From Acidiphilium sp. (lineage in GTDB: Bacteria > Pseudomonadota > Alphaproteobacteria > Acetobacterales > Acetobacteraceae), in contig JAQTXH010000006.1 of the NCBI GenBank assembly GCA_028688905.1, positions 1 through 64,000 on the forward strand: DNA of 64,000 bases, in the 5' to 3' direction. Within the stretch, counting starts at the first letter, position 1; the number at the start of each line of letters is the position of its first letter. Below the pieces are notes generated by a model, which saw only the letters and a program-made list of their open reading frames with translations, ran no database searches and had not been told where the DNA came from. This document shows, piece by piece, positions 47,545 to 63,099 of the stretch. Both the position numbers and the translations under genes were made by a program.

Positions 47545-48036
47545 TCAATCCGCAGTAATCGGCTGACCGGACGGGCTGGTCAGCGGCACGCCGCCCAGCG
47601 TCGTGATCGCGGTTGGCGGTGCCGGCACCGCAGCCAGGGCCACCACCGGCAGGGCAATACTGCGGGCAAAACTTCGCCCGCACGCTGTCGAAATCCCAAT
47701 GGTTACGGTGTAATCGGTTCCCGGTTGCCCCGCCGTCAGCCACAACACCGCCCGCGTGCCATCGGCCGCCGAAGACGCCAGCGTCAGATCGCCCGGATTA
47801 TTCGGCGAGATCGCAACACTCATCGACGCAATCGTGTCCCCCGGATTCCCCGTCAGGGCCGGCGCGATCTCGAACACATAGTCCAGCGTATCGCCAGGGT
47901 CTTTCTCAGGCCACGTCAATGGTTGTGGCGGCTGCAGGGCCAGCCCGCGTGGCGTCGGAATGAACCCCTCGATCTCGATCAGCCGCGCCGATGATACTTG
48001 CCAGACATAGCTGGCCGGCGTCGTGGTTCCGCTCAT
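47545..48036 (-). CDS. putative phage fibre-tail adaptor protein
   Basis: A 163-residue all-beta protein. The block LTWPEKDPGDTLDYVFEIAPAL followed by two Ig-like halves (DTIASMSVAISPNNPGDLTL, TVTIGISTACGRSFARSIALPV) resembles small adaptor proteins found between fibres and baseplates. The ATG at 48036 has GGAG six bases upstream; a GTG at 48048 is in frame. It lies between the glycine-rich fibre and the beta-helix spike, fitting a linking role. Confidence 0.6.
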   Translation of the reverse strand: MSGTTTPASYVWQVSSARLIEIEGFIPTPRGLALQPPQPLTWPEKDPGDTLDYVFEIAPALTGNPGDTIASMSVAISPNNPGDLTLASSAADGTRAVLWLTAGQPGTDYTVTIGISTACGRSFARSIALPVVALAAVPAPPTAITTLGGVPLTSPSGQPITAD

Positions 48037-48048
48037 GATTTGCTCCAC

Positions 48049-49305
48049 TCAGTATTCGACGATCACGATGCCCGGCGCGCCCTGCCCACCCAGGCTTCCC
48101 GCCGGGTTGCCGCCGCTGGTGGTCGTGCCACCGCCGCCGCCGCCGCCGCCAAACCCGGTGGCGGCAAAACCCGCGACCGGTCCGCTGGCACCACGGCCGC
48201 GTCCCGCACCCCCGCCGTCGCCACCCCGGCACGCAATGGTGATACCGTCGCAACCCATGGCCCCGCCTTGAACGATCCGCGCACCCAACCCGATGCCGCC
48301 GGTTCCGCCTGCGGTCGCGAACAGGGTCGCGGTGCCGCCTTGGCCGCCACTGCCCCCGGACGCCGATAAATACGTGCCGAAACTCGAGGTTCCGCCGGCA
48401 CCGCCATTCCCCGGCGACGTCGTCGGCACGCCCGCCGCGCCCACGGTCACGGGGATCGACTGCCCCGGTACCAGCCCGGTCACAATGTCGATCGCGGTGC
48501 CGCCTTCGCCACCGCCGGCACCCGGCAGGGTCGCGTGATACCCGGCCGCGCCGCCACCGCCGACCACCTTCACCCGAACCTGACCGACACCTGCCGGAAC
48601 CACGAAGCTGCCGGACAGGTCGAACACCTGCATCGCCGAAAAACCAGGCCGCAACTGGGGTAATTTGAAACTCAGGAACGGCGCGGCCGGCAGCGTGATA
48701 ATATCCGCAGCGGTAATCGCGCTCTGCCCGTAGTTCACCGTAACCACGTACAGACCGACCCAGCCGGCATCCACCGCCGGCGTCGTCTGTGTCCCCGCGC
48801 TGGCCGCCGCGCCAGGCTTCACCTGCAACTGCACCCGCTCGATCCGCATCGTGTTCTGTGCGCCACCGGTATTGTCAGGTCCGGAATAGGGCACCGAAGG
48901 TGTGGCCGCATTCACATACGGCAGCACGACCGGCGCTGTGTCGGTTTCAGAAAACGTCGCCTCGATCAGGTAATTCACCGACTGGCCCGAACTCGCCGGT
49001 GCCGCCAGGCTGAAGGTGACCGGGTCAAGATTGATCCCGGTTTTGACGATCTGCTCAGCCTGACTGGCCGTCAGGCTGCCATAAGCATTGGCATCGACCG
49101 GCCCGAACTGGGTGATCGACCCCGGTGCCACCGTCACCGTCAGTGCGGCGGGTACCGTTGGCGCGCAGCCCAGGCCATCGGCGACCATCCCGGTGCCGAA
49201 CACCGCCGCGCTCAGTGCTCCGAGTCCCACCATGACGTTGCGATTGATGTTGAGAATATCGGTGTCGAGCGGAATTGCGCCCGGGTAGACGATCGTGCGA
49301 TCCAT
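48049..49305 (-). CDS. glycine-rich tail fibre protein
   Basis: A 418-residue protein. The N-terminal ~220 residues look like a baseplate-proximal fibre domain (MDRTIVYPGAIPLDTDILNINRN...). From ~225 a beta strand region (GSFVVPAGVGQVRVKVVGGGGAAGYH) leads into ~170 residues very rich in Gly (e.g. GGEGGTAIDIV, GGDGGGAGRGRG, GFGGGGGGGGTTTSGG), as in polyglycine-type adhesins and similar phage fibre tips. It ends GIVIVEY. An AAGGA site precedes the ATG. Confidence 0.75.
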   Translation of the reverse strand: MDRTIVYPGAIPLDTDILNINRNVMVGLGALSAAVFGTGMVADGLGCAPTVPAALTVTVAPGSITQFGPVDANAYGSLTASQAEQIVKTGINLDPVTFSLAAPASSGQSVNYLIEATFSETDTAPVVLPYVNAATPSVPYSGPDNTGGAQNTMRIERVQLQVKPGAAASAGTQTTPAVDAGWVGLYVVTVNYGQSAITAADIITLPAAPFLSFKLPQLRPGFSAMQVFDLSGSFVVPAGVGQVRVKVVGGGGAAGYHATLPGAGGGEGGTAIDIVTGLVPGQSIPVTVGAAGVPTTSPGNGGAGGTSSFGTYLSASGGSGGQGGTATLFATAGGTGGIGLGARIVQGGAMGCDGITIACRGGDGGGAGRGRGASGPVAGFAATGFGGGGGGGGTTTSGGNPAGSLGGQGAPGIVIVEY

Positions 49306-49357
49306 GGAATATCCTTTATTTGATCGTGAAAATCAGGCGGTCGCGCGGGGCGTCCCG

Positions 49358-50035
49358 TCAGTCCGACAGGCGGGTCCACGCAACGGCACCAGCCGGCAAA
49401 ACCGCGACAATCGCCGCATAAATGTCAGAATCCGTCGTCAATCCAGGGTCGTCGGCCAGATCGCTCCAGGCCATCGGCACACACCCATATCCGCCCGGCC
49501 CCAGATTATAACCGCCATCGTTGCCCGAAGACGAAACAACCGGTCGAAACGCCATGACAAAACATTGATACGGCAACGCAAGACTACCATAGCCACCAGC
49601 CGTGTTATATCCCAGCGTATTACTGTCATAACCGCCAGTATCGCCTGTATTGAACGGCTCGAATACATTGGGTGTCCGTCCGGTCTCGGCGATCAGCCCC
49701 GCAACCAGCGCGGCCCGCGTCGCCCGAGGTGCGAGCAGATTGGCCCTGATCCTGGCGCTGAACATCGCATCGGTTTCGCCAGCCCGGCGCGCCAGGCTCG
49801 CACCAAAAAAATCCTGCGCCGCGATATCCAAAAACGGCCCGGTCGCCGTGGCAATCCGGGTCTGCGTCGTCGCAAACCCGATCAGCGCGTACAGCGCCGC
49901 CCACAGTGTCGCGACCCCACCCAATACCATATCGAGCACGGGCGTCGCGTCGGCGAACCAGCCCGCCGGCAACACCGATTTCAGCCGCGCCACCATATCG
50001 GCAACACCGCCGGTCGAAACCCCGGTTCCGCTCAT
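49358..50035 (-). CDS. phage tail protein I-like
   Basis: A 225-residue protein located just after baseplate J, the position of P2 gpI or Mu gp48. N-terminal helices include MVARLKSVLPAGWFADATPVLDMVLGG and DFFGASLARRAGETDAMFSARIRANLL; the second half is Gly/Tyr-rich (NTAGGYGSLALPYQCFVMAF). It probably joins baseplate wedge and fibres. The assignment rests mostly on gene order. Confidence 0.6.
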   Translation of the reverse strand: MSGTGVSTGGVADMVARLKSVLPAGWFADATPVLDMVLGGVATLWAALYALIGFATTQTRIATATGPFLDIAAQDFFGASLARRAGETDAMFSARIRANLLAPRATRAALVAGLIAETGRTPNVFEPFNTGDTGGYDSNTLGYNTAGGYGSLALPYQCFVMAFRPVVSSSGNDGGYNLGPGGYGCVPMAWSDLADDPGLTTDSDIYAAIVAVLPAGAVAWTRLSD

Positions 50036-50038
50036 GGC

Positions 50039-51163
50039 TCAGGCCACACTGATCGTGCCGACCCGCACCGCGCCAAATAACGGCGGTACGAGGTCTGCCA
50101 TTGTGCCGTTCAGCATTGTGTCGGTCACGTTGATCACAGTATTCGAAGCATCGTAAGCAATCTGAGCCAGCCTGGAATAGGGCAAACCCGCCCCCACCGG
50201 CAGGCTCTCTATGTAGGCCGCCAACGCATCGTTGACCGCACCGATCACCACCTGTGACTGCGCATTCTGCGTCAGCGCCAGCGTCATCGCCACGTCGGCC
50301 ACCACCACCACCGGCCCCTGAACCGCAAACCGCGTTCCTATTGGCCGCACGGCGTTTACCGCCTGCGCCACCGTCGCCAGCAAGCTCGCCGGCGGCGCGC
50401 CGGTTCCATTGTCCACGGTTACAACAAAGTTACCCAGGCTGACCGCTCCGGTCTGATCGACATTCTCCGCAATCGAGACCGACAACCCCTGCTGCACCCC
50501 CACAACGGTGGCCTCGATGGCACCCAGTGTCGCCCGCGACAGGCTTGCCAGATAATTACCGAACCGCGCCTTGAACGCCGCGTCGCTTTCGCCGTCCAAT
50601 CCACCCGTCATCGGTGCTGCATTACCGACAGTATCGACCCCCGGAATCGCACTGGTCAACAAACCAATCGTTCCCGCCAATACATCACCGGCCGAACCCG
50701 CTACAGTGGCACTCACCGGCAAATCAATCGAGGCAATACCCGCCGCAAGACTATAACCGACCCGCACAACCGAATAGGCGGCGTTCGTGTTATCGGCCGT
50801 CACCATGAAACTCTGGCTGCCATCGCTGGTCATCACCGTGGTTCCCACCGGCACGAATGCCGCGAGAACCGGCGCGAACCGCGCAAACGTCACCATCCCG
50901 GCGGCTTGCGACGCCGGTAGCCGGACAAACCCGAAATCCGCGCCAAAACTATCGCAATCCACCCCGCTGCTGGTCGCCAACCGGGTCGTCTGCAAGACCT
51001 CGACGATCAACCACTGCAACCACAATCCCAGCGACGCATTCGCCTCCAGAATCGCCCGCAACACCGACCCCACGGTCAAATCCAGAACCTGCGTCGCGGC
51101 CCCCTGCACGGCAGCCGCCATCTGCTCCACCATCGCGGTGAAGGTCTGCAACGATAATTGCAT
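50039..51163 (-). CDS. baseplate J-like protein
   Basis: A 374-residue wedge protein of the contractile-tail baseplate. It has the family pattern: N-terminal helices (LDLTVGSVLRAILEANASLGLWLQWL), GVDCDSFGADFGFVRLPASQAAGMVTF, GLDGESDAAFKARF in the centre and the C-terminal AYIESLPVGAGLPYSRLAQIAYDA. It overlaps neither neighbour but is within 4 bp of the downstream gene. Confidence 0.88.
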   Translation of the reverse strand: MQLSLQTFTAMVEQMAAAVQGAATQVLDLTVGSVLRAILEANASLGLWLQWLIVEVLQTTRLATSSGVDCDSFGADFGFVRLPASQAAGMVTFARFAPVLAAFVPVGTTVMTSDGSQSFMVTADNTNAAYSVVRVGYSLAAGIASIDLPVSATVAGSAGDVLAGTIGLLTSAIPGVDTVGNAAPMTGGLDGESDAAFKARFGNYLASLSRATLGAIEATVVGVQQGLSVSIAENVDQTGAVSLGNFVVTVDNGTGAPPASLLATVAQAVNAVRPIGTRFAVQGPVVVVADVAMTLALTQNAQSQVVIGAVNDALAAYIESLPVGAGLPYSRLAQIAYDASNTVINVTDTMLNGTMADLVPPLFGAVRVGTISVA

Positions 51164-51201
51164 GAAATATCCTCTGAAGCGCGAAAAGACCGTTCCGCCG
51201 A

Positions 51202-51567
51202 TCAGCCCGGCAGCGTCAGCGCCGTACTCTGCCCGGTGATCGCATCCTGATAGGCAATCGTCATCGCAATCCCCGATGGATTATCCTGATCCACCACAAT
51301 CTGCGGCAACGGCGATTGCGCCACCCGGCTCTCCGCCTGCATCTGCGCCCGCGCCACCGCGGTCACCGCACCCACGGCACCGGCCGCCCCGACAAACCGA
51401 CCCAACCCGGCACCGTAAGTCAGTTGCCAGATATAATCGCCGGGATTCGTCAGCAGCCGCCGCAACACCCGTTGCTCGGTCAACCCCGATCCGCTGGCCA
51501 GCGCCAGATCGCCCGACACCCCAATCGCCAGATCGCCGCCGAACACCACCGAAGCATCCGCCATCAC
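51202..51567 (-). CDS. baseplate gp25/W-like protein
   Basis: A 121-residue protein of the size and position of gp25/W, which closes the baseplate around the tube. GSGLTEQRVLRRLLTNPGDYIWQLTYGAGL resembles the core helix and strand of the family, followed by the conserved hydrophobic strand and C-terminal DAITGQSTALTL. It overlaps the V gene by four bases. Confidence 0.7.
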   Translation of the reverse strand: MMADASVVFGGDLAIGVSGDLALASGSGLTEQRVLRRLLTNPGDYIWQLTYGAGLGRFVGAAGAVGAVTAVARAQMQAESRVAQSPLPQIVVDQDNPSGIAMTIAYQDAITGQSTALTLPG

Positions 51568-52112
51568 ACCACCGCCGATGGCGTGCCGGTCTGCCCGCCC
51601 TGCGGATCAGGGTGTACATGCCCATCATAAGCCTGGCGCAACGTGTCGACACTTCCGTGCTGACCCCCCAAATCGGAAATCCCGCCGCTGACCATCAAAT
51701 TTCCCTCAATCGAAACCGTGCTTGCCTGCAATGCGATCGTCCCATCGTTCTTGAGCTTGATGAACGACCCGGTCTGATGCACCAGCCAGAACTCCCCCAC
51801 CGGCGCCCCCGGCGTCGGCTCCGCATTCGACCACACCCGCCCGATCACCACGGCCTGCTCGGCATCGCCCTCCTGACCGAGCACCATCACCTGATCGCCC
51901 GGCGACAGCGGTGCGGCCATGCCCCAGCCCGCGCCAATCCACCCACTCAGCACCGGCAACCAGCCCGACAGCAAATTTTCCGGCTGCATCGTCACCCGCG
52001 CCGCATAGGCGGTCGGATCGAAACTCGCCACCACGCCAAACCGCGCCTGCCCGCTCATCCCGTCCAGCGCCGCCGCCCGCACCTTCACCGCATTCCAAAA
52101 TGCGTCCATCAC
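51564..52112 (-). CDS. baseplate assembly protein V (tail spike)
   Basis: A 182-residue puncturing-spike protein. The N terminus carries an OB-fold (RFGVVASFDPTAYAARVTMQPENLLSGWLPVLSGWIGAG, SPGDQVMVLGQEGDAEQAVVIGRVWSN) and the C terminus a short beta-helix tip (GSFIKLKNDGTIALQASTVSIEGNLMVSG) ending in a histidine-containing apex (DGHVHPDPQGG), as in P2 gpV. It overlaps the D gene end by four bases. Confidence 0.85.
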   Translation of the reverse strand: MMDAFWNAVKVRAAALDGMSGQARFGVVASFDPTAYAARVTMQPENLLSGWLPVLSGWIGAGWGMAAPLSPGDQVMVLGQEGDAEQAVVIGRVWSNAEPTPGAPVGEFWLVHQTGSFIKLKNDGTIALQASTVSIEGNLMVSGGISDLGGQHGSVDTLRQAYDGHVHPDPQGGQTGTPSAVV

Positions 52113-53107
52113 GCCACCTGCAACGCTTCAAACCGCTGGATAAACCCCTGGCGCATATCGACACTCCGTTCGATCGTTCGGACGACATAGGATGCATCGA
52201 GCGACGTCCCGGTCCCTTGCAATAAAATCACGCCATCCGGCCCCAGCGACAACTCGCCCGGCATGCTCGCGCGCAACAATACCGCCTGCGCCGCCAACGC
52301 CGCCTGCTGCGCCGTCGTTTCCTGGTCCACCTCTGCCTGGGTCAAATTCGGCCGCACCAGGGTCACCCCGCCCGCCGTGCCGGAACTCTGTGAAAAACTC
52401 TGCTTCAATTTCGGATTCCAACTGGTCACGGTCACCTTCGGCGTCACCAGGCCCAGCGCCCGATCCACCACCAGCGACAAAAAATCCCGCCCGAACGTCA
52501 GCAGCATCGGCGCGCGGAGGGCCGGCGGCCCGAAGTTCAACACCGTGCCGGTCACCGACAATGAAAACTGTTCGAAGGCGGCAAACCCCGCCAGCAAATC
52601 CCACCGCGTCACATGCCGCGTATGCAACCCCAGCCCGGTGCGCATATGGGCCAATTCGTAATACTGCCCGACCGGCGTGCTCGTTGCCGTCACATTGGTC
52701 TCAAGTGCGGCATCGGCGGCAAACGCGGTGGCAATTTCACTCGCGGTCTGATTGGCAAAACTCTGCGCCACCTCGGCATCGATCAACCGCGCCGACAAAT
52801 CCCGCCCCGACAGCACAACATGCCCGGTCCCGAAATCCACCGCGACATTGTCGATCTGACCGGTCAGAATTGGCTCTCCCGCCAAACCGGCCGAACCAAG
52901 ACCGATCGTGATCGTCACAATACCGGCCTGCAACCCCGCAAACAGCGCCGCACCGCCCAGCGTCGCCCCGGTCGCCAGCCACACCTGAAACCGGTCCGCG
53001 GCAAAATGCCCGCATTGCATCAACTCCAGCCGCTCAACCCCCGCAACCGGAACGCCATCGATCGCAACGCCGACCGCGATCGACCGCGACCCCACGGTAT
53101 CAAACAT
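52109..53107 (-). CDS. late control D-like tail hub protein
   Basis: A 332-residue hub protein of the P2 gpD/VgrG-gp27 type. Recognisable blocks are GVERLELMQCGHFAADRFQV, GQIDNVAVDFGTGHVVLSGRDLSARLIDAEVAQSFANQTASEIATAFA and the C-terminal TSLDASYVVRTIERSVDMRQGF. The ATG at 53107 overlaps the gpX-like gene by 8 bp. It connects the tail tube to the spike. Confidence 0.8.
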   Translation of the reverse strand: MFDTVGSRSIAVGVAIDGVPVAGVERLELMQCGHFAADRFQVWLATGATLGGAALFAGLQAGIVTITIGLGSAGLAGEPILTGQIDNVAVDFGTGHVVLSGRDLSARLIDAEVAQSFANQTASEIATAFAADAALETNVTATSTPVGQYYELAHMRTGLGLHTRHVTRWDLLAGFAAFEQFSLSVTGTVLNFGPPALRAPMLLTFGRDFLSLVVDRALGLVTPKVTVTSWNPKLKQSFSQSSGTAGGVTLVRPNLTQAEVDQETTAQQAALAAQAVLLRASMPGELSLGPDGVILLQGTGTSLDASYVVRTIERSVDMRQGFIQRFEALQVA

Positions 53108-53291
53108 TCGGCACCCCGCCGGTCGCCGCCGGGTCAACCGGAGGCAACACCAGCCTCACCACCCCACTCAATACCGGATCGCTCAGATCATTCGCCTGCG
53201 CAATCCGGACCCATTGCGTCGCATCGCCAAGATATTGCGCGGCAATCGCGAACAGATTGCCGCCCACCACGGTCACAACCGTCTCGCTCAC
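53100..53291 (-). CDS. tail protein X-like (LysM-like)
   Basis: A 63-residue protein. VVGGNLFAIAAQYLGDATQWVRIAQANDLSDP is the LysM-like core of small tail proteins such as P2 gpX, which sits at the tail tip. The C terminus is short and ends VDPAATGGVPNV. It overlaps the D gene start by 8 bp and the gpU-like gene end by four. Confidence 0.78.
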   Translation of the reverse strand: MSETVVTVVGGNLFAIAAQYLGDATQWVRIAQANDLSDPVLSGVVRLVLPPVDPAATGGVPNV

Positions 53292-53974
53292 AGCGCCCCC
53301 AATCCGATATTCGCCACCACCCGCCCCACATAGGCTTGCGCCGCCGCGGCCCCGGCCAGGACCGACGAGGCCGACCCCAGCGTCGCCATCGCCGCGATCG
53401 GTGCCGCCGCACCGGCCGTGCCGGAAAATTCATTGCTCGCGGCACTCAGCGCTTCACCCGCGCCACTCACCGCCGCCGCCAGCCCGCTCTGCGCCATCGC
53501 CAGCGCCGCCGAACTGACCGTCGAAACCCCCGCCAACGATACGCCGCTCAACCCTGAAAACCCCGCCGCACTCGCCAGATCGAGTCCCGCCTGCGCCAAC
53601 GCACTCGGCAACGCGGCAACCAGATTCTCAACCGCCAGCAGAGTGATTTGAAACGGAATCCACCACGGTTTCTGATACGAGGCACTGAACGCGGTAATCA
53701 CCACGCTATAGGCAAACCCGCCAAACGCCAGTGGCAGCGTCGCACCCACATTCCGCGCGCCGTCGAGCACCTGCGCGCGCAATTCCGCATCGGGACCGGA
53801 AAAAGTCCCGGCAAACGTAATCTCCCCCGCCGCGCCACCCAGCACATCGACCACCCGGCCCCCGCCCAACGGCTGATGCACCGCCAACCGTTGGGTGCCG
53901 CCGAACCCTATCTCCGCCGGCACCTCGAAATCCCGGAACGCGACACCGCCCAGCGTCACCGCAACCGCCGCCAT
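53288..53974 (-). CDS. phage tail protein, gpU-like by position
   Basis: A 228-residue protein. The N-terminal half (VTLGGVAFRDFEVPAEIGFGGTQRLAVHQPLGGGRVVDVLG...EITFAG) resembles tail completion proteins of the P2 gpU class. The C-terminal half is a long Ala/Gly/Ser-rich helical segment (AMAQSGLAAAVSGAGEALSAASN) that is unusual in length. It lies between the short tape-measure-position gene and X. Confidence 0.65.
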   Translation of the reverse strand: MAAVAVTLGGVAFRDFEVPAEIGFGGTQRLAVHQPLGGGRVVDVLGGAAGEITFAGTFSGPDAELRAQVLDGARNVGATLPLAFGGFAYSVVITAFSASYQKPWWIPFQITLLAVENLVAALPSALAQAGLDLASAAGFSGLSGVSLAGVSTVSSAALAMAQSGLAAAVSGAGEALSAASNEFSGTAGAAAPIAAMATLGSASSVLAGAAAAQAYVGRVVANIGLGAL

Positions 53975-53989
53975 CCACCCCTCCTGATT

Positions 53990-54925
53990 TCAAAATCCTG
54001 GCTTTCTACCGGCAAATATCGGCGCCAGCCGGCCATCGAACCCGGTCACCCCCGAAGGCGGCCGGCGCGCCTCATCGGCGAACAAATCCCCGATCATCCG
54101 AGCCACGTCATACCGCGGCACGGCCTCGTCACGGCCAACCATCATCGCATCCGGCCCCGCTGCCCGATCGACCCGTCCATGATCCGTCACCGAATGTGAC
54201 CGGAACCGATCCGCATCCTCCGGCGCACCGGCTTTCGCAGGAGACGCTCTCCAACCCGCCACGGCACCCGCATCGCGCCGATCCCACGCCGAACGATCTC
54301 CCACCGGTGCCGCCGCCCGCGCCAGAAGGCCCCCACCGCCCGCTATGGCGCGAGCCGCCGGCATCCAGGATCGCAACCCCGAAGCACGGCCCGCGCGCCA
54401 GGTTCGCTCCACTTCCACACGATCTACCCCGCCACCATCATCGCGACCGATCGCCGTGCCGCGCGAAGCCCGTCGCACCACGTCTGCAACCCGCGCCGCC
54501 ATACCGCGTCGCCACCCCTCGGCACCGCGCAAAAACCCGCCGCCCCACCCCTTCATCAACACCGCCGCCGCTGCCCGCTCGCCGGCAACCCGCGCCACCC
54601 GCCGCCGATCGTCCGCCACCCGCTTGATCGCCGCACCAATCCCGCCCGAACCACCCCGGACCGAGCGCACCGCCATCCATCCAGTCGCGGCAATCCGCCG
54701 CATCCCCGCCCAGCCCACCGCGGCCCGAACATGGAAACGTACAGGCCGCTCAAATGCGGCCCGCCCAGGCTCCTGGCGTGGTCCGATCACCCGCACATCC
54801 CGAACGTCAAACCGCCGTCGCGGGGCAAATCGCGCGCCAAAGCCCAACGCCCGCGTCGCGCGCCGGGCCATACCGGCCGCAAAGCGCGCGAACCGCCGCC
54901 CTGCCCGATCGCGCCGCACGCTCAC
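53990..54925 (-). CDS. short arginine-rich protein in the tape-measure position
   Basis: 311 residues, starting at a GTG whose last two bases are shared with the stop of the chaperone frameshift frame (GTGA). It occupies the place of the tail tape measure, between the chaperone and the gpU-like gene. It lacks the features expected of tape measures: there is no long coiled coil and no hydrophobic transmembrane stretch. It is extremely Arg-, Gly- and Ala-rich (RRDRAGRRFARFAAGMARRATRALG, RRVARVAGERAAAAVL). The C-terminal ~70 residues look more ordinary (YDVARMIGDLFADEARRPPSG). Function uncertain. Confidence 0.55.
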   Translation of the reverse strand: MSVRRDRAGRRFARFAAGMARRATRALGFGARFAPRRRFDVRDVRVIGPRQEPGRAAFERPVRFHVRAAVGWAGMRRIAATGWMAVRSVRGGSGGIGAAIKRVADDRRRVARVAGERAAAAVLMKGWGGGFLRGAEGWRRGMAARVADVVRRASRGTAIGRDDGGGVDRVEVERTWRAGRASGLRSWMPAARAIAGGGGLLARAAAPVGDRSAWDRRDAGAVAGWRASPAKAGAPEDADRFRSHSVTDHGRVDRAAGPDAMMVGRDEAVPRYDVARMIGDLFADEARRPPSGVTGFDGRLAPIFAGRKPGF

Positions 54926-55098
54926 CGCCGCACCCACTGCATGGTTTTCCAATCGAAATCGAACCCGTCCAGTTCGCCACAGGCCACCACAAACGCCAGG
55001 CGCTCCGCCTCACCCAGCGTGAACGCCACCTCGAACGGCACCCCGCGCCCGACCAGATACAAACAGTCGATCAACCCGGGGTGCCGGCTCAGTTTCCC
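54922..55098 (-). CDS. tail assembly chaperone, -1 frameshift extension
   Basis: From the slippery site the -1 frame stays open for 58 codons: GKLSRHPGLIDCLYLVGRGV, PFEVAFTLGEAERLAFVVAC, GELDGFDFDWKTMQWVRR and stop. The composition is that of a folded protein, and it lacks its own start and ribosome site. The fused product would be about 155 residues, like lambda gpGT or P2 E+E'. Such chaperones coat the tape measure during tail assembly. Confidence 0.8.
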   Translation of the reverse strand, partial: GKLSRHPGLIDCLYLVGRGVPFEVAFTLGEAERLAFVVACGELDGFDFDWKTMQWVRR

Positions 55099-55394
55099 GC
55101 CAGCGCCTTCACCGACGCCGCATCGCCCGCATCGAGCACCACGGCCACCGCCTCGATGCCATCATCGCCCAACCGCTCGACCGCGTTCTCCACCGCCGCC
55201 TCACTCGCCGGAAACAGCAGCGGCACCCCGTCCACCGCCGTCACCGACGCCGCCAGCGATGCCACCCCGAGATATGCATCGTTCATTGCCAAATCATTGC
55301 CCAGCGCCTTGAACAGCCGTAACCGATCCAGCATCGTCAGAGCACGCACCGATAATTGCCGTCCCCGCGCATCCTCAACCACAAGCTCGCTCAT
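55089..55394 (-). CDS. tail assembly chaperone (gpE/gpG-like)
   Basis: A 101-residue protein, ELVVEDARGRQLSVRALTMLDRLRLFKALGNDLAMN at the start and AVAVVLDAGDAASVKALAGN at the end. The helical composition, size and location (between tail tube and tape-measure-position gene) fit the tail chaperone. The stop codon follows a GGGAAAC heptamer, implying that a fraction of ribosomes shift -1 to make the longer form. Confidence 0.82.
   Translation of the reverse strand: MSELVVEDARGRQLSVRALTMLDRLRLFKALGNDLAMNDAYLGVASLAASVTAVDGVPLLFPASEAAVENAVERLGDDGIEAVAVVLDAGDAASVKALAGN
55092..55098 (-). promoter_or_regulatory. slippery heptamer for programmed -1 frameshifting
   Basis: On the coding strand the sequence is G GGA AAC directly before the UGA stop of the chaperone, a textbook X XXY YYZ site. 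The -1 frame then continues for 58 codons. Lambda uses GGGAAAG at the equivalent place. Confidence 0.8.
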
Positions 55395-55819
55395 ACCCGC
55401 TTCCTGGTCGAGGCAAAGAAGTCAAGCTTCTGCGCCACCGGCATATCGCCCCGATACATCCCCGCCGAACTCAGCTTGAACACCACGCCCTCATACTGAT
55501 AGGTCGAGATCGAGCCATCAACTTCGCTGACATACTGATACAAGGTCCCCGGCGGAATCGCCTGCCCCGCCAGATAGGTCTGCTCGATCTGTGCCATGAA
55601 ATCGTCGGCGACCGACGTCCCCCGATCCAGCGCAAAACTACCCTGCCAGCCGCGCGGCAGTTCCGCCCCCAGCTGTATCCCATCGAGCCGATCGACCCGC
55701 ACACTCTGCGTCACCTGGCTCACCTCGAACCCGGTCACATACGACAGATCAACCCGGCCAAACGGCCCCATCACCACAACCTGGCAATCATTACCAACGG
55801 AAAAACTATTATATGGCAT
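55391..55819 (-). CDS. tail tube protein
   Basis: A 142-residue protein following the sheath, the standard place for the tube. It is beta-rich: VVVMGPFGRVDLSYVTGFEVSQVTQSVRVDRLDGIQLGAELPRGWQGSFALDRG, then YVSEVDGSISTYQYEGVVFKLSSAGMYRGD. The DNA-conducting inner tube is made of stacked hexamers of such proteins. It overlaps the chaperone start by four bases. Confidence 0.82.
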   Translation of the reverse strand: MPYNSFSVGNDCQVVVMGPFGRVDLSYVTGFEVSQVTQSVRVDRLDGIQLGAELPRGWQGSFALDRGTSVADDFMAQIEQTYLAGQAIPPGTLYQYVSEVDGSISTYQYEGVVFKLSSAGMYRGDMPVAQKLDFFASTRKRV

Positions 55820-55831
55820 GTTCTATTGTCC

Positions 55832-57388
55832 TCACACGGTGCCCTGCGGCAATGTCTGCTGACTGACCTGCACGGTCTGCCCGCCCTCGACATTGACGAT
55901 GAATTTCTCGTTGATCGCCTGATACTGAACCTGCACATCCGCCTGCACATACCCAAGCGCCGTGCGCGCCGGCGGATTGTTCGAAATGTCGCACACCACC
56001 GCAAACGGCAGCGACCCATTGGTTGACCCCAACATCCCCTGACCCAGCATGGCATTCAAAAACGACAGCAGGGTCGAGCGGATGTTTTGAAACAGCGTGG
56101 TATTGACCAACTGCCCGACATACGAACCCATCCCGGCCGAGAGGGTATCGGCAATATAATTGGTCATCCGCGTATAGTTATCGCCATTGGTCGCACTATC
56201 GGACGCTGTATTATGCCCACCCCGCACGCCCCAGAATGCCCCACCCGGCTGCGGATTACTGATCACATCAATCCCCGCCGACAACAGAACCGACAAATCG
56301 GCGGTGGAGTAAGTATTGCTGGTCCCGGCAACCGCCTGCCCCGACTTCTGGCTGCCCACCACACCATAAAGCGGCTTGTTCAACGAAGACTGCTCGGGCG
56401 ACAAATTCGCCAATCGCCCCGCCGCAAACCCCTGGGGTGACACCAGGCGCGTCACCGCATTGGCCTGATCGTACCACCAGATCCAATCGCCAAACATCAG
56501 CTTGGCCACGTAGGAATCAATCCCTATCGATTGCTTGGCCGCCACAGCACTCGTGATCGTATCGCCCGGTGGTCCAGCGAGGATCATATAACAGCCCTCT
56601 TCCAACCCGAACGCAACCTCGGCGCTCCACTGCGTCTGATCGTCTAAATCCGCCAGCACGACAATGCTGCATCCCTGGCCCCGCAGCGCATACATCCCCG
56701 ATCGTGGCAATACATCCTGCCCGGTCACCATGCCCGATATCAGACCGGCAGCCCCATCGCTCCCAGGCGTTCCCGCCGAAAACAGAAACGAACCCGCCGA
56801 GGGTGCCAGCGACGATGTCCCCGCACTGGCCACCACCAATTGTGAAGCCCCCCGCAATGGCCCGACACCATTATTGATCGCACTGGCAACCGCCTGCCAG
56901 AATGCCGCGCCACTGCCGGTAATATTATCGAACACCTCAGGCGCACGCCCCGGCATCCCAACCGTCACCCGCCAGGAATTCGCCGCCGACCCAGCCGAAA
57001 CCGTCGCGACCAGTGCATTGCCCAGACTTCCGGTATACAAAGCGGTCAAGGTCAGGGCACCCAGAATCGAAATCGAAGCCGCGGCGTCGGTCCCATCGGT
57101 CACCCGCACGCAACGGAAATTCGAAGCCCCCTGCTGCACCCCGATCGCAACCACCGTCCCCATATCATACTGGCGCGCCATCACCGGCCCGAACGCGGTG
57201 GCGTAATCGCCCATCGAGCCGACGATCATCGGTTGATCCACCGGCCCCCAGCTCGCGCTGCCCACCACGCCCAGCACATTGGTCGGCACGCCATTGAGCA
57301 GCAGCGTCTGTGGCGGCACGATCTGCACATACAAATCCGGCACGATCAGCGCGGTCGTATTCAAGGCACCCGCTTGTGAAATCGGCAT
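55832..57388 (-). CDS. tail sheath protein
   Basis: A 518-residue contractile sheath subunit. It has the early TNVLGVVGSASWGPVDQPMIVGSMGDYATAFG block (typical of sheath N termini), a variable middle domain and the conserved C-terminal half with MTNYIADTLSAGMGSYVGQLVNTTLFQNIRSTLLSFLNAMLGQGML and PARTALGYVQADVQVQYQAINEKFIVNVEGG. This gene is the main reason to call the tail contractile. Confidence 0.9.
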   Translation of the reverse strand: MPISQAGALNTTALIVPDLYVQIVPPQTLLLNGVPTNVLGVVGSASWGPVDQPMIVGSMGDYATAFGPVMARQYDMGTVVAIGVQQGASNFRCVRVTDGTDAAASISILGALTLTALYTGSLGNALVATVSAGSAANSWRVTVGMPGRAPEVFDNITGSGAAFWQAVASAINNGVGPLRGASQLVVASAGTSSLAPSAGSFLFSAGTPGSDGAAGLISGMVTGQDVLPRSGMYALRGQGCSIVVLADLDDQTQWSAEVAFGLEEGCYMILAGPPGDTITSAVAAKQSIGIDSYVAKLMFGDWIWWYDQANAVTRLVSPQGFAAGRLANLSPEQSSLNKPLYGVVGSQKSGQAVAGTSNTYSTADLSVLLSAGIDVISNPQPGGAFWGVRGGHNTASDSATNGDNYTRMTNYIADTLSAGMGSYVGQLVNTTLFQNIRSTLLSFLNAMLGQGMLGSTNGSLPFAVVCDISNNPPARTALGYVQADVQVQYQAINEKFIVNVEGGQTVQVSQQTLPQGTV

Positions 57389-57391
57389 TCC

Positions 57392-57529
57392 TCAATCCCC
57401 CGCCATAACACGCACGACCGACTGCCCCTGGCCCTCGGCCAGAATTTTCGCGATCGCTGCTGCATCGGTGATCACGTCACCCCGTTTGAAGCCGCCGAAC
57501 GGCTTCACCACCACGAATTTAATTGTCAT
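57392..57529 (-). CDS. 45-residue phage protein between sheath and neck genes
   Basis: A small gene with a strong AAGGAG site before its ATG. The product MTIKFVVVKPFGGFKRGDVI then TDAAAIAKILAEGQGQSVVRVMAGD looks like a compact beta-alpha fold with a basic face. Small proteins of similar size and sequence pattern occur next to head or tail genes in many phages, but the function is unknown. It starts 10 bp downstream of the neck gene and ends 4 bp before the sheath start. Confidence 0.8.
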   Translation of the reverse strand: MTIKFVVVKPFGGFKRGDVITDAAAIAKILAEGQGQSVVRVMAGD

Positions 57530-57538
57530 GAAGTCTCC

Positions 57539-58387
57539 TTAACCGGATATCCCGGCAATAAACGCGCCGTTCGCCTCGATACCGCCCACGCCGAACAACA
57601 TCGCCGGCGTCAAAGCCGCCAATGTCGTCGGATATTCGACAGTATAAATAATATCCCGCCGGTACAGCGCCGCATCCGCACTGGCATCGGTGGTCAACCC
57701 GCCCGCATAAACAACATGCCCGCACGACCCATCGGCCAGCCCGATGAAATTCAGCTCCGCCAGCGCCGGCTCGATCGCCGCCGCCGCCGCATCCCGCGTC
57801 AGCGGATCGCCACACCATAATGAAATTCGAAACGCCTGCGCCTGACGCTTGATCTCCTGCAACGAAATTCCGCCCGCCACCACGCGCGCCACCAACAACT
57901 GAGCCGCCGGCACCGTCACGGTCGTCCCGGCATAATCCACCAGCCACCCCGCCGTCCGCATCATCGCCGCCAGGTTGCTCGCAACCGTCGGCGGTGTATC
58001 CCGCGCCTGCACCGCATAGGGAAAAATCGCCCCATCCACCGCAATGCCCGCCAATTGCCCCGCCGCACAAACGCCCGAAAACGTCGCCGACAAATCGCCC
58101 ACACTAACAACGAGCGTCGCCGGCACCGGTGCCACCTCCTGCCACACCCGAGGAAATCGGGTGGTGTTCTTCACTGCTGTATCGGCCGGAAACACCGTCG
58201 CGTGCATCGCCCCCTGCGCCAGGTCCGTCTCCAGCGTCGGCCCGTTCGGCATCCCCCGATACACCCGGCAGGTCACAACCCCGCCAGGCCCGATCACCGA
58301 CGAAGGAGCCGCCATCCCATTGGGATAAACCGCGCTCGCCACCAACGACACCAAGGCAGTCTCCACATCCGATTGATCCGCCATCAC
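57539..58387 (-). CDS. phage neck/tail terminator-type protein
   Basis: A 282-residue protein of unknown family, located where tail terminator or neck proteins are encoded. It starts MADQSDVETALVSLVASAVYPNG, a typical beginning for tail terminator proteins that dock on the last tube ring, then GVVTCRVYRGMPNGPTLETDL; the second half (ISLQEIKRQAQAFRISLWCGDPLTRDAAAAAIEPAL) is also reminiscent of that class. Assignment is by position and these patterns. Confidence 0.6.
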   Translation of the reverse strand: MMADQSDVETALVSLVASAVYPNGMAAPSSVIGPGGVVTCRVYRGMPNGPTLETDLAQGAMHATVFPADTAVKNTTRFPRVWQEVAPVPATLVVSVGDLSATFSGVCAAGQLAGIAVDGAIFPYAVQARDTPPTVASNLAAMMRTAGWLVDYAGTTVTVPAAQLLVARVVAGGISLQEIKRQAQAFRISLWCGDPLTRDAAAAAIEPALAELNFIGLADGSCGHVVYAGGLTTDASADAALYRRDIIYTVEYPTTLAALTPAMLFGVGGIEANGAFIAGISG

Positions 58388-59028
58388 ATCACGCTTTCGG
58401 TCAGCGCCAACCGCCAGATGCCGCCATAAGCCACCACCGCGTCCACCACGAACTGCCGCCCGCGTGCGTCGCGTACCAAATCCGCCACCTGCGGTGCCAA
58501 CCCCGCAACCGCGGCCACCGCCCCGATATACCCCGGCAATTTGGTATCATCCGGCAACCCGGCGCGGGACCGGTCACTAACACCGCCCGGCAGTAACGCC
58601 GCCGGAAACCCTACCAGAATCGCGGTCGCCGCCCCGGCCAGAATCGCCCCGTACGGATTGACCCCCGCCAGTACCGGCCCCGAAGGCCGCCATACGCTCA
58701 CGGTCTCATTGCACTGCACCCCCAGCACCGGTGCCGGCGGCTCATTGGTCGCCACCAGCAGCGTTCCCAACGGCCCCACCACATAATCCCCGGCCGCGAC
58801 ATACGCCTGATCCAGCACCAGCTGCCGATACGGCACCCCGAACGGTGCCGGCCCGCGCGCCGAGCCTGAAACCGGCAGCGAAAGCACCGCCAGCCGTACC
58901 GTCCGGTTCACCGCCACCACCGGGCACGCCCCATCGCGCGGCCGGAACGCATCGCAGATCACCCCCGCCTTGCGCGCCGCCATGCCCCCGCCATACGCAA
59001 TGCGGTCCGCCAGCCTCACACCGTCCAT
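58384..59028 (-). CDS. hypothetical phage neck protein
   Basis: A 214-residue protein (ATG 59028, MDGVRLADRIAYGGGMAARKAGVICDAFRPRD). I do not recognise a family. It contains a Gly/Ala/Pro-rich beta region (PVSGSARGPAPFGVPYRQLVLDQAYVAAGDYVVG) and ends in ARGRQFVVDAVVAYGGIWRLALTES, which resembles structural collar proteins. It overlaps the next gene by four bases. Confidence 0.6.
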   Translation of the reverse strand: MDGVRLADRIAYGGGMAARKAGVICDAFRPRDGACPVVAVNRTVRLAVLSLPVSGSARGPAPFGVPYRQLVLDQAYVAAGDYVVGPLGTLLVATNEPPAPVLGVQCNETVSVWRPSGPVLAGVNPYGAILAGAATAILVGFPAALLPGGVSDRSRAGLPDDTKLPGYIGAVAAVAGLAPQVADLVRDARGRQFVVDAVVAYGGIWRLALTESVM

Positions 59029-59036
59029 GAAAATCC

Positions 59037-59441
59037 TCAAACGATCAGGGTAATGCCGGAAGATTCCAAAGCCCCACCCGGTGGCACGCCGATGAACCCA
59101 CACAACCGCCGTCGCCAGCCATCGAACAACGCGTCCCGATCCCGCACCTCGCGCTGGTTATGCTGCCAACTCGCCGCCGCATCGGTATCAAGGTTGCCGC
59201 TCGCCAACGGCACCGCCGCCTCAAGGGCGTTCAACGTCGCCAGATAATTCACCACAACGGCGACCTCGGCTGGAGCAAAGTTGTTCATCCGATATTCCAG
59301 CGTGCCGTAGGCCTGAAAGAACCGCCAGGATTCAAACCCCGCCGCCCCGGCACCATAGGCCGGATACCCGCAGAATCGCCGCACATCGACCTTCTGCGCC
59401 TCGGTCAGAACCCCCGGCGCACTGTCATAAACGCCCGACAT
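59037..59441 (-). CDS. head-tail adaptor-like protein
   Basis: A 134-residue protein. LTEAQKVDVRRFCGYPAYG at the start and YRMNNFAPAEVAVVVNYLATLNALEAAV in the middle are alpha-helical, as in head-tail connector proteins. The C terminus carries RDALFDGWRRRLCGFIGVPPG. It starts at an ATG just after the upstream stop (TGAGATG) and follows the decoration-like gene. Confidence 0.62.
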   Translation of the reverse strand: MSGVYDSAPGVLTEAQKVDVRRFCGYPAYGAGAAGFESWRFFQAYGTLEYRMNNFAPAEVAVVVNYLATLNALEAAVPLASGNLDTDAAASWQHNQREVRDRDALFDGWRRRLCGFIGVPPGGALESSGITLIV

Positions 59442-59442
59442 C

Positions 59443-59751
59443 TCAATACACCGAGCCGTCACCACGGGTGAAAAACACCGACCCGGTGCCCGATCCCAGC
59501 ACCGCGCTGGCATAAGTCGCCAACCGTCCGGCATCCACCAGCACCCGCCCACCCGGCGGCACCGGCATATCCCCAGCCGCCGAAGCGGCCACCCCCGCCA
59601 TCCCGAACCGCACGAATGCCACTCCGGCCGCCGCATTGAACACCAACACGCTCGCTCCGCCCCCCACCAATGCGACCGTGGCCGCACTGGTCGAAGCCGC
59701 AACCGAAGCCGTCCCGGCAGGCCGGAACGGTAACGATGCCCCAACTGACAT
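59443..59751 (-). CDS. small phage head protein, decoration-like
   Basis: A 102-residue Ala/Gly/Val-rich all-beta protein (ASLPFRPAGTASVAASTSAATVALVGGGASVLVFNAAAGVAFVRFG) between the major capsid protein and the adaptor. Its placement and composition suggest a capsid decoration or stabilising protein. No signature motif is present. Confidence 0.6.
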   Translation of the reverse strand: MSVGASLPFRPAGTASVAASTSAATVALVGGGASVLVFNAAAGVAFVRFGMAGVAASAAGDMPVPPGGRVLVDAGRLATYASAVLGSGTGSVFFTRGDGSVY

Positions 59752-59764
59752 GGTTAAATACCCC

Positions 59765-61087
59765 TCAACCGATATGCTCGATCATCACCGCGCGCTTGAA
59801 ATTCGAATTGTTAGCGGTCGGAACCGTGGTCGACGTCGTGGTGGTGTCAGAAGGCGCACAGAACCCGCCAATCCAATACCAGGATTGCGCAATGATCTGC
59901 TGCAACCGATCGATCGGTTCCCGCGTCACCATTGCGACACTGTCGATAATGCTGACCAGCGCATCCTTCGGTGCCACATCCTCGGCACCCATTCCCGCGA
60001 AATCGGCCTCGATCAGCGCACCCTTGCCGCAAATAATCGGCCGCCGGACCGCAAGTCCGCCCGCAATCCCCAGCGTCTGCACATAAGCCTCGGTCGTCGT
60101 AATGAACCGCAGACCGAGGAAATCATTGACCATACCCTGGCGAAACACCGGATTGCTCGAGGTCGCGCCCTGGAACAACTGCCTGAAGTCGGGATCGGAA
60201 AACAACTGTCGTGCGGAAACCGGATCGAGATAGCAATTATACGCACCATCGAGTTCGGGTACCGCATTCTGCCGCAGCGTTGCCACCGCATCCAGAAGAA
60301 CCGACATCGTCAGCGAATCCCCCGCCTGCAACGCGGTTGTGGTCAGACGGCCCGACGGTCGCACAATCGTACTCGCCGTAACCGCAATCACCGAATTTCC
60401 GGCGGTCGCGTCACTCACGCTGAGATCGACCGCGAAAGTCAACTGGCCCGAAAGGCCGGACGGTGCGGTCGATGTATTGCTCATATCCGGTGTTACCGAG
60501 ACCAGGTTATAGTTGTTGGTCCCCACCGTCACGAGCAATGGATTCGCCGCCGAAACCGCTGTTTGCACCCCATTGACATAGACCGTGGTAAATCCACGAA
60601 TATCATCAACCGCAATCGTCGGTCCCGTACTGGTCAACGTGGTCAAGACCCGCGTATTGCCGCCGAAATACGGTGCAAACAACGCATTCCGCGCCAGTTC
60701 ATCCAGGCTTCGCGCTGCCTGCTCGCCATTGGTCGACGCATTCTGCAAAAACTGCGAAGCAATGCCGACCCGGCTGGTCACCATATTCAAATCCTGCGTC
60801 GCCGCATAAAAATTCAGCGTCACAGTATACTGCTCGACCCCCCAACCCTGCGGGGTCAAACCATTGTCCAGATTGGTGTTAGTGCTGGCCGCCATCGGAG
60901 TGGTCACCGAAGGCTTCAACCCCGCCCGCGTCTTGGTCAATGTTTCACCAATGCCGACCGCGAAACTCTCCCGGTCCGCCACCATCCGATACCCCAGCCG
61001 CGACCGCAAAGCCTGCTCGAACTCGCGCTCCAGAAACCCCTGCTGAATGATCGGCTGCAACGAAGCTGGAAAATTCGAAATACCCAT
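59765..61087 (-). CDS. major capsid protein
   Basis: A 440-residue protein located after the scaffold, the standard place for the coat protein. The N-terminal arm ISNFPASLQPIIQQGFLEREFEQALRSRLGYRMVADRESFAVGIGETLTKTRAGLKP is characteristic of this group of coat proteins. The long central beta region and C-terminal VTREPIDRLQQIIAQSWYWIGGF follow. No cleavage site is evident. It forms the icosahedral shell. Confidence 0.78.
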   Translation of the reverse strand: MGISNFPASLQPIIQQGFLEREFEQALRSRLGYRMVADRESFAVGIGETLTKTRAGLKPSVTTPMAASTNTNLDNGLTPQGWGVEQYTVTLNFYAATQDLNMVTSRVGIASQFLQNASTNGEQAARSLDELARNALFAPYFGGNTRVLTTLTSTGPTIAVDDIRGFTTVYVNGVQTAVSAANPLLVTVGTNNYNLVSVTPDMSNTSTAPSGLSGQLTFAVDLSVSDATAGNSVIAVTASTIVRPSGRLTTTALQAGDSLTMSVLLDAVATLRQNAVPELDGAYNCYLDPVSARQLFSDPDFRQLFQGATSSNPVFRQGMVNDFLGLRFITTTEAYVQTLGIAGGLAVRRPIICGKGALIEADFAGMGAEDVAPKDALVSIIDSVAMVTREPIDRLQQIIAQSWYWIGGFCAPSDTTTTSTTVPTANNSNFKRAVMIEHIG

Positions 61088-61154
61088 GTTTGATCCCCTT
61101 GCGAACGACGCAAAAAAGCCGCGCTTCCGGAGGAAGGCGGCGGTGAAGAAAGCA

Positions 61155-61176
61155 GTTCTTTTTTGTAAAAAAGAAC
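61155..61176. terminator. A/T-rich hairpin, copy 1
   Basis: A 10-bp stem GTTCTTTTTT / AAAAAAGAAC with a 2-base loop. Read on either strand, it has a T run inside the stem, so it could act as a bidirectional terminator or a transcript-processing site between scaffold and capsid genes. Confidence 0.45.
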
Positions 61177-61244
61177 CAAAAACTTTTATGAATTAGGCCC
61201 GAGACAGTTAAACCACCCATGCCCCAACAGAGCGAAAGTTTTTT

Positions 61245-61271
61245 GCTTCTTTTTTTACAAAAAAAAGAAGC
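61245..61271. terminator. A/T-rich hairpin, copy 2
   Basis: A 12-bp stem GCTTCTTTTTTT / AAAAAAAGAAGC with a 3-base loop ACA, ending 14 bp before the scaffold stop codon. Together with copy 1 it forms an inverted pair. Confidence 0.45.
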
Positions 61272-61285
61272 CTTAACCTATCTCT

Positions 61286-61690
61286 CTACCCACCGGACCG
61301 TCGCAATAACTCCGCCCGCGCCGCCCGCCACTCATCCTCGCTCAAATCCCGCGCATGCCGCGCCCGCGCCGGTTCGGCTCGCGGCACCGCGGCGGTCGAG
61401 GACGATGAAGCCGCCCCGAACAGCCACGGCTTATCCCGTTTCAATCGCGCCATCACCGCCGCCGCATCCGGCACCGAACCATCGTCCGCCAACACGACCC
61501 GATCGAAATCGACGAGTTTCAACCCATCGAGATCGACCATTCCGGCCCGTACCGCTTCGATCTTCAATTCAACCCGCTTGAGTTTTTCCAGATGCTCATG
61601 CCGCATCTGGTCCAACGCCTTTTCAGCCGCCTCGGCCCGCGCCTGCCAGTCATCCGGCGGTGCGTCCTCACGCTCGATTTCATCGGTCAT
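61286..61690 (-). CDS. capsid scaffold protein
   Basis: A 134-residue protein with an N-terminal coiled coil (WQARAEAAEKALDQMRHEHLEKLKRVELKIEAVRAGM), an acidic middle and a C-terminal basic helix (ARHARDLSEDEWRAARAELLRR). AGMVDLDGLKLVDFDRV and DAAAVMARLKRDKPWLFG are typical of scaffolding proteins, which guide shell assembly and are then lost. It overlaps the portal gene end by four bases (ATGA). Confidence 0.8.
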   Translation of the reverse strand: MTDEIEREDAPPDDWQARAEAAEKALDQMRHEHLEKLKRVELKIEAVRAGMVDLDGLKLVDFDRVVLADDGSVPDAAAVMARLKRDKPWLFGAASSSSTAAVPRAEPARARHARDLSEDEWRAARAELLRRSGG

Positions 61691-63099
61691 GCGCCATCCT
61701 GTTGCATTTGATCTCCGTCATGTTCGATCCGGTCGAGTTCCGCTGCCACATCGGCAATCGCATGGGTCGCCGCCAGGCTCTTCACCGCTGTTTCGCGGGA
61801 AAGCTGACCCGCATTGACCAGTGTCGCAATCGCCTGTGCCTCCTTGAGCCGATCATCCGCCGAAGCCGGATACCAGCGCGGCCACCGCAAATTCAGCCGC
61901 ACCTCGGCCTCCACCGGCGGCACCGCCTGACCCATCACGATCAGCGGAAACCGCGCCCGCGCCCGCAGCACCATCCGCAGCAACGCCAGCAATCCGCCCT
62001 CGCCATAGGAAATCCGCAGATTATCCGCGAGCCAGATCAGCCCCTGGTTCATCAATTCCAGCGCCCGCCCCGACTGCGCCGCACTCAACCGATCCGCATT
62101 GGCCCGATTGCCATGCACGCTTTCGAGCGCCATTTCCCGCAGCGTCCGCACATACTCGATCACCGCCGCCGATGCGGTCCCGCCAATCTCCAACAGCTTG
62201 GCATCGCCCTTCTCGGAGACAATCAAAGCATTGCCGGCACCTTTGACCAGTTCCCGATCCGTCGTCGCCGGCTCCTTGATCAACAACGTCGGGTCAGAGG
62301 CATATTTTAACCCGCGCCCTGCCTGCGACAACTGATAATCGATCTCGATCCCGGATTCGATCGCGGCCCGAAACGTACACGCCCCGTCGATACCATCGCC
62401 ACCCGGCAAATTCCGGATCCACACGACCGGCACAAACCCCAGCCCATGCCGCACACTACGCTCATCGTCGATCTCGAGCGGCAACGGGTCCACAACGCTC
62501 TGCGGCACATACCAAACCTCGCCCAAGCCATCCCAGACGCGCTGGAACCAGTAATATTGTCCGGCATCAACATCCTGATACCCTTGCGCCAGTAATTCAG
62601 ACCCTTTGACTTTATACCGCTCGCTCACCGAAGCCAGCGTATCCGGCGCATCCTCCCGCCACACCGGCGTCAGATACGTCGTCTCCAGCACCGAAAAGAA
62701 CAACCGCCCCTTCAGCACCCGCAACAGCACCGCAACCGACCCTACGGCCCCGCGCAACGCCGCATCGATCATCACCTCATTGAGCCGGCTTTCCCGCATC
62801 ACATCGCCGATCAGCGCTTCGGCAACGGGGTCCGCACATTCAACCGACGGAAAATGCCCTGCACTGAACAGCAACGAAACCGAATCCTCCACCACAATCC
62901 GGCACAACCCATACCGCACCGAAGGCCGGCGCGCCCGCAACGGAATATACTCTCCCGCCCCGTTCCGCTCATCGCCGAACGCATAGGGCAACGCATCGTA
63001 GATCGTCCCCTCCAGCACCCGCCGATAAACCTCCAGCCGCCGCGCCCGCGGGGCCAGATGAGGGTCCGCCGGAATCGTCTGACAGATCGTCTCGAACAT
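61687..63099 (-). CDS. phage portal protein
   Basis: A 470-residue portal of the SPP1 gp6-like type, which forms the dodecameric DNA gate at one vertex. It contains an N-terminal RVLEGTIYDALPYAFGDE wing, LCRIVVEDSVSLLFSAGHFPSVEC, and the central LREMALESVHGNRANADRLSAAQSGRALELMNQGLIWLADNL stem/clip region followed by WPRWYPASADDRLKEAQAIATLVNAG. It lies directly downstream of terminase and upstream of the scaffold. Confidence 0.85.
   Translation of the reverse strand: MFETICQTIPADPHLAPRARRLEVYRRVLEGTIYDALPYAFGDERNGAGEYIPLRARRPSVRYGLCRIVVEDSVSLLFSAGHFPSVECADPVAEALIGDVMRESRLNEVMIDAALRGAVGSVAVLLRVLKGRLFFSVLETTYLTPVWREDAPDTLASVSERYKVKGSELLAQGYQDVDAGQYYWFQRVWDGLGEVWYVPQSVVDPLPLEIDDERSVRHGLGFVPVVWIRNLPGGDGIDGACTFRAAIESGIEIDYQLSQAGRGLKYASDPTLLIKEPATTDRELVKGAGNALIVSEKGDAKLLEIGGTASAAVIEYVRTLREMALESVHGNRANADRLSAAQSGRALELMNQGLIWLADNLRISYGEGGLLALLRMVLRARARFPLIVMGQAVPPVEAEVRLNLRWPRWYPASADDRLKEAQAIATLVNAGQLSRETAVKSLAATHAIADVAAELDRIEHDGDQMQQDGA

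Follow-up and report, generated by a model that had tools for sequence, protein, structure and literature searches.

A conserved, very probably programmed −1 frameshift in the presumed tail chaperone of myovirus-like prophages found mostly in Acetobacteraceae

The synthesis of a tail chaperone in a short and a frameshifted form is known from several phages. In lambda, for which the gpG/gpGT frameshift mechanism is described in passages of PMC5009743, the slippery heptamer is G GGA AAG and the zero-frame stop lies five codons past it. In P2, a −1 shift at T TTT TTG near the end of E, six codons before the stop, adds a short extension (57 residues past the heptamer by translation) to give E+E', and the genes follow the contractile-tail order sheath, tube, E, E' and then T. 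For Mu, the record of gp41/FS-gp41 notes a shift of −2. The same passages of PMC5009743 give the heptamers G_GGA_AAC and A_AAA_AAC for the archaeal siphoviruses HCTV-1 and HCTV-2, and state that, in E. coli, A AAA AAC is less shifty and heptamers ending in AAC are not the shiftiest type. A measured frameshifting of 6–7% is given for an HK97-like chaperone cluster in a passage of PMC3711429. Homologues of the two reading frames treated here, E and E', occur in the Komagataeibacter phages phiKX1 and phiKX2, and the pair is annotated as two hypothetical proteins in phiKX1 (L148; LC644975.1, 31376-31917). A term search of the main text of the phiKX1 paper (PMC8566455) found neither "frameshift" nor "chaperone". 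That paper reports myovirus particles of acetic acid bacteria that can be induced with mitomycin, and phiKX1, whose host is Komagataeibacter xylinus NBRC 13772, is predicted in it to be incomplete. No report of the element treated here was found in the literature on Acidiphilium prophages or Acetobacteraceae phages, most subscription journals being outside the scope of that search.

The locus described here belongs to the genome of an Acidiphilium sp. (3.41 Mb in 26 contigs) and lies in the window, that is, the whole stretch of DNA analysed, which comprises the first 64,000 bases of one contig. The surrounding genes form a contractile-tail phage module, with PHROGs assignments for portal, major head protein, sheath, baseplate hub, and baseplate assembly and wedge proteins. 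The genes of interest are on the minus strand, and their order (sheath, presumed tube, E, E') is like that of P2. The tail sheath gene (55832..57388; PHROG 23, tail sheath, E 6.4e-52) is followed by a gene of 142 aa (55391..55819; PHROG 12993, of unknown function, E 2e-39), presumed to encode the tail tube from its place after the sheath. Next come the zero-frame gene E (55089..55394, 101 aa, stop TGA 55089..55091), a presumed tail assembly chaperone, and its −1-frame extension E' (54922..55092, 56 codons and a stop). The reading frame that follows, 311 aa from a GTG (53990..54925), is presumed from gene order only to encode the tape measure. Taken as a 320-aa ORF, it had no Pfam match up to E 1 and a best PHROG match at E 0.19, and no NCBIfam match up to E 1 was obtained when it was read from the GTG. 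A tape measure acts as a ruler of 1.5 angstrom per residue, by which such a short protein would predict a tail of about 47 nm. At 53100..53974, two adjoining genes matched the first and the last parts of PHROG 21362 and, judging by these matches, probably correspond to one gene in other phages.

The 3' end of E reads GCG GGA AAC TGA, with the heptamer G GGA AAC (55092..55098, minus strand) in the frame of E and directly abutting the stop, exactly as the original prediction had described for this 101-residue gene. It has the in-frame X XXY YYZ form of a programmed −1 frameshift element. The first six bases are the same as in the lambda heptamer, the last being C here and G in lambda, and the published HCTV-1 and HCTV-2 heptamers equal the two main types found at this locus, whereas the T TTT TTG of P2 is unlike it. 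As in P2, the shift would fall near the end of E and add a short extension. The −1 frame begins with a CTG that starts on the last base of the heptamer, reads LSRHPGLIDCLYLVGRGVPFEVAFTLGEAERLAFVVACGELDGFDFDWKTMQWVRR and ends at the TGA 54922..54924. This stop overlaps the GTG 54923..54925 (GTGA) that opens the next frame, an overlap that had also been announced. The extension had been put at 58 codons; the frame was indeed open, but its length was 56 codons after the AAC, and 58 only when the re-paired GGG and AAA were counted.

Of 195 relative genomes, 53 contained homologues of E, counting the genome of the window, and three sets of loci were compared. The first comprised 64 loci, 58 from genomes and 6 from IMG/VR (65 loci less L001, a duplicate of L002). 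An in-frame X XXY YYZ heptamer was located at the E/E' junction in 62 of them (36 GGGAAAC, 24 AAAAAAC, 1 AAAAAAA and 1 GGGAAAT), and in 60 of these 62 it abutted the stop. The two loci lacking it were L047 and L064; the end of the latter resembles a short-chain dehydrogenase motif, and we take this locus to be probably spurious, although it was counted as a miss. The second set was collected with an E profile as the best 80 of 404 IMG/VR relatives, 75 of which were new. Two of these (L116 and L137) were cut by contig ends, and the remaining 73 testable loci all carried both the heptamer and the extension, the latter ending at the contig end in L071 and L120. The third set was obtained by searching with E' alone (best 80 of 119 genome loci), using peptides that include residues encoded by the stem described below, but as degenerate codons; here, the heptamer was present in 79 of the 80 loci. 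The sets overlapped in identical 65-mers (31 between the first and the third, 6 between the second and the third, and 1 between the first and the second), and together gave a pool of 160 distinct heptamer-bearing sequences, from which L047, L064, L223 and the contig-cut loci were excluded. This layout of heptamer and extension is far beyond chance.

In this pool, the heptamer was GGGAAAC in 120 sequences, AAAAAAC in 38, and AAAAAAA and GGGAAAT in one each. RNA polymerase might slip on a run of six A, and the 38 sequences with A AAA AAC would suit an explanation by transcriptional slippage on a homopolymer run, which would yield a mixed mRNA population. Nevertheless, in the 120 GGGAAAC sites, runs inside the heptamer do not exceed three bases, and the feature common to the sites is in-frame tRNA re-pairing together with a stem-loop in a fixed register, so that slippage of the polymerase is considered extremely improbable. 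The zero-frame stop abutted the heptamer in 133 of the 160 sequences (118 TGA, 13 TAA and 2 TAG), and was found six codons past it in 26 and seven codons past it in one. The excess of TGA may simply mirror the Leu and Ser codons that overlap the stop. Compared with the five codons of lambda, the six of P2, and the mean distances given in a passage of PMC10885494 for a published tool (26 nt for the set on which it was trained and 36 nt for the Xu phages), an abutting stop was unusual, yet not required.

Downstream of the heptamer, a stem-loop was identified that had no place in the original prediction. It extends over 55036..55086 on the minus strand, with 10-bp arms (55077..55086 with 55036..55045) and an upper stem at about 55064..55070 with 55049..55055. 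The stem, GGCACCCCG..CGGGGTGCC, starts 5–6 nt past the heptamer (7 in a few sequences), the register being the same in 61 of the 62 heptamer-bearing loci of the first set, and lies where a −1 frameshift element would have its downstream RNA structure. Eight of eight lower-stem pairs were formed in 140 of the 160 distinct sequences, seven in 19 and three in one (L057). Counted by set, the figures were 71 loci with 8/8 and 2 with 7/8 in the second, and 66 with 8/8 and 13 with 7/8 in the third. Under random synonymous recoding (200 rounds), 8/8 pairs were reached on average by 1.9 of 58 sequences and never by more than 5, versus the 47 of 58 observed.

Furthermore, 92.5% of the cells were paired, versus 34–50% when the structure was slid by 1–3 columns, and 29 cells had changed on both sides, versus 13.8 in shuffles and 2–15 when slid. 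Counted by pairs, such changes affected four, a number equalled or exceeded in three of six slid controls, and RNAalifold gave a small covariation term (−0.25). These changes were located mainly in the upper stem, the sequence of the lower stem being too uniform for covariation, and the case for the lower stem rests on synonymous constraint, its fourfold sites being nearly frozen (GGG in 158 and GTG in all of the 160 sequences). Folding energies compared with synonymous recodings gave a mean z of −2.26 over 159 sequences, 61% of which were below −2, and a z of −2.38 in the window; against shuffles, the window fold was modest (z −1.78, 12 of 200 shuffles as good). A covariance model matched 55034..55098, the window being among the model's own sequences, and an Rfam scan of 54500..55900 returned 0 matches up to E 5. 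No excess of loop-to-3' pseudoknot pairing was detected, the mean longest run being 6.6 versus 6.8 in shuffled sequences. Regarding a possible Shine-Dalgarno-like stimulator upstream of the site, the 4-mers AGGA, GGAG or GAGG were present in 68 of 159 sequences, versus a mean of 40 (sd 5.3) in a crude single-base shuffle; the upstream stretch of the window has none of these three, and has AAGG. The stem-loop would stimulate the slippage.

E' was under purifying selection in the −1 frame only. Over 30 codons beyond the stem, pN/pS was 0.27 in this frame, as calculated from 356 sequence pairs at 75–97% identity; the corresponding values were 1.37 for the frame of E (from 316 pairs) and 2.28 for the +1 frame (from 302), with pairs that were not independent of one another. 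Internal stops were present in 0, 68 and 89 of 163 distinct loci, respectively. Conservation of the extension among relatives, which had been suggested as a check, was hence borne out. The AlphaFold2 model of E' had a mean pLDDT of 90.6 on 55 residues (the window row without its first Leu). Spurious long ORFs are frequent in this GC-rich DNA, 95 of at least 60 aa overlapping 48000..62000, and the −1 frame could have been a chance open frame of this kind or the remnant of a broken gene; given the lack of stops in 163 loci, the pN/pS of 0.27, the conserved residues and the confident E' fold, this has next to no probability. On sequence grounds, the site, the conserved stem-loop and the selection of the −1 frame as protein can be regarded as established.

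A more serious alternative was a separate E' gene that has a start of its own, with translation perhaps coupled to the stop of E, and needs no frameshift. The absence of a start codon for the −1 frame alone had been claimed, but in that frame an ORF of 50 aa begins with a TTG at 55074, and of the 163 loci, a set that includes the window, 96 had an ATG, GTG or TTG within the first 16 extension codons (codons 0–15). Likewise, in the annotation of phiKX1, E' is an ORF of its own, 59 aa long and starting at an internal ATG; gene callers had been expected to miss the extension, but annotators sometimes call part of it. Nevertheless, nothing supports the use of the TTG as a start, and the annotated ATG of phiKX1 is downstream of an intact heptamer, read there as A AAA AAC TGA, and of the 5' arm of a stem with 8/8 pairs. 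A start codon within the first six extension codons (codons 0–5) was present in only 8 of the 163 loci, and in none of the 163 was an extension start preceded by AGGA, GGAG, GAGG or AAGG at the usual distance. Moreover, an own start accounts for neither the heptamer nor the stem. A locus speaking for it was L047 (G013:C29), without heptamer and with 5/8 stem pairs, in which E' lies in the +1 register and has an ATG of its own after GGAG. Overall, an independent E' gene is considered very unlikely in comparison with the frameshift. The genome of L047 contains two other loci (L055 and L063) that keep the heptamer and the stem.

Other exceptional loci were also observed. In L223, E and E' are in the −1 register, the junction having only T TTT, with no X XXY YYZ heptamer, and 5/8 stem pairs being formed. 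In L057, the heptamer A AAA AAC was kept and a compact 6-bp hairpin (GCCCGG ACTTTA CCGGGC), 9 nt past the heptamer, replaces the long stem. A second, more distant copy was present in one genome (L143/L147, G068:C9), with A AAA AAC, the stem GGCACCCC and a zero-frame stop that is not directly past the heptamer. In L143 (AAAAAAC), 8/8 pairs were obtained if the 5' arm was moved by one base, the spacer being one base shorter.

Regarding the identity of the proteins, the window E matched PHROG 20383, of unknown function, at E 8.6e-17. This family was matched by all 51 scanned E members, and PHROG 508, tail assembly chaperone, by 5 of the 51 (best E 2.4e-4). In Pfam, the window E had matches below the cut-off only, and 1 of the 51 members matched eIF-5a (E 0.0028); in NCBIfam, the matches of E were all below the cut-offs. 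Sequence searches of the PDB gave no meaningful match. The best viral fold match to the E model (pLDDT 91.5) was an uncharacterised phage protein (E 1.4e-5); the E values of all other matches were 0.001 or higher. The first eight viral fold matches include two named tail assembly chaperones and FS-gp41 of Mu (E 0.019, TM 0.60), in which the noted shift is −2 and not −1 as here. The values were E 0.016 and TM 0.55 for the tail assembly chaperone of Bacillus phage Gemini and E 0.032 for a Rhodococcus phage chaperone, and the list also holds some baseplate hub proteins. In the PDB fold list, the HK97 chaperone (2ob9) was first, with a weak match (E 0.7, TM 0.44). As modelled, the fold of E appears to resemble those of tail assembly chaperones weakly to moderately. 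For E', none of 53 members matched Pfam at E 0.01, no NCBIfam match was obtained for the two members tried, and 1 of 53 had a weak PHROG match (E 0.0023). The best match of its fold in the viral library was a 49-aa uncharacterised phage protein (E 0.44).

Lambda and P2 had been named as precedents only, and the likeness in gene order and proposed mechanism stood, without extending to sequence kinship with E and E' of P2: an alignment of the profiles to the single P2 sequences with hhalign gave probabilities of 0.1 and 0.2 percent, and this candidate relationship was rejected. Regarding distribution, the named hosts among the 160 distinct sequences were mostly Acetobacteraceae. In a draw of 385 class genomes, which held few of the window's own family, the covariance model with stricter filters was found in two (the window's own and one of the same family), and the E profile in three, the third being a weak match from another family, inside a 451-codon frame. 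A MAG labelled Terriglobia (L216) carries the locus as well, perhaps because it is mis-binned or because the host range is wider.

On sequence grounds, the heptamer, the selection on the −1 frame and the stem-loop strongly supported the original prediction that a tail chaperone is subject to programmed −1 frameshifting, and the place of E after the sheath and the presumed tube, together with its weakly to moderately chaperone-like fold, agreed with it. Shifting from E to E-E' in this presumed tail-chaperone family is regarded as highly probable; the sequences very probably contain a conserved programmed −1 frameshift in the chaperone gene of myovirus-like prophages, the hosts of which are mostly Acetobacteraceae. 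The kind of frameshift is ordinary and known in other phages; the gene pair and the hairpin are unlabelled in the databases searched. Most ribosomes would finish E (101 aa) at the TGA abutting the heptamer. A fraction of them would meet G GGA AAC while the stem-loop 5–6 nt ahead resists unwinding, tRNA-Gly and tRNA-Asn would move back by one base to pair with GGG AAA, and the ribosome would then go on to make E-E' (101 + 56 = 157 aa). If the analogy with gpG/gpGT of lambda holds, the tape measure might be bound by many copies of E and few of E-E', and the E' domain might recruit tube subunits. We infer the slippage, its efficiency and these roles of E and E' from the features described above.

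Given that heptamer and zero-frame stop adjoin in 133 of 160 sequences, the stop could occupy the A site during slippage, which would then compete with the release factor. Such a termination-gated frameshift was contemplated because of results in passages of PMC4373837, according to which −1 frameshifting at an HIV site in bacteria was reduced by a stop at this position and lost altogether when RF2 was raised; stops at this position are also stated there to occur naturally at some viral sites. It is put forward as a tentative and rather unlikely refinement of the programmed frameshift.

The locus thus provides a compact −1 frameshift element whose conservation extends over 160 distinct sequences. 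Through it, PHROG 20383, a family of unknown function, may be identified as a tail chaperone, and E' would be an extension domain for which Pfam has no match and PHROGs a single weak one. The E/E' pair of phiKX1 could be re-annotated as a joined gene. Additionally, the abutting stop offers a natural test case for competition between the release factor and −1 frameshifting in bacteria. If termination gating were true, the release-factor activity of the host, that of RF2 above all, would influence the ratio of E to E-E' and, through it, tail assembly.
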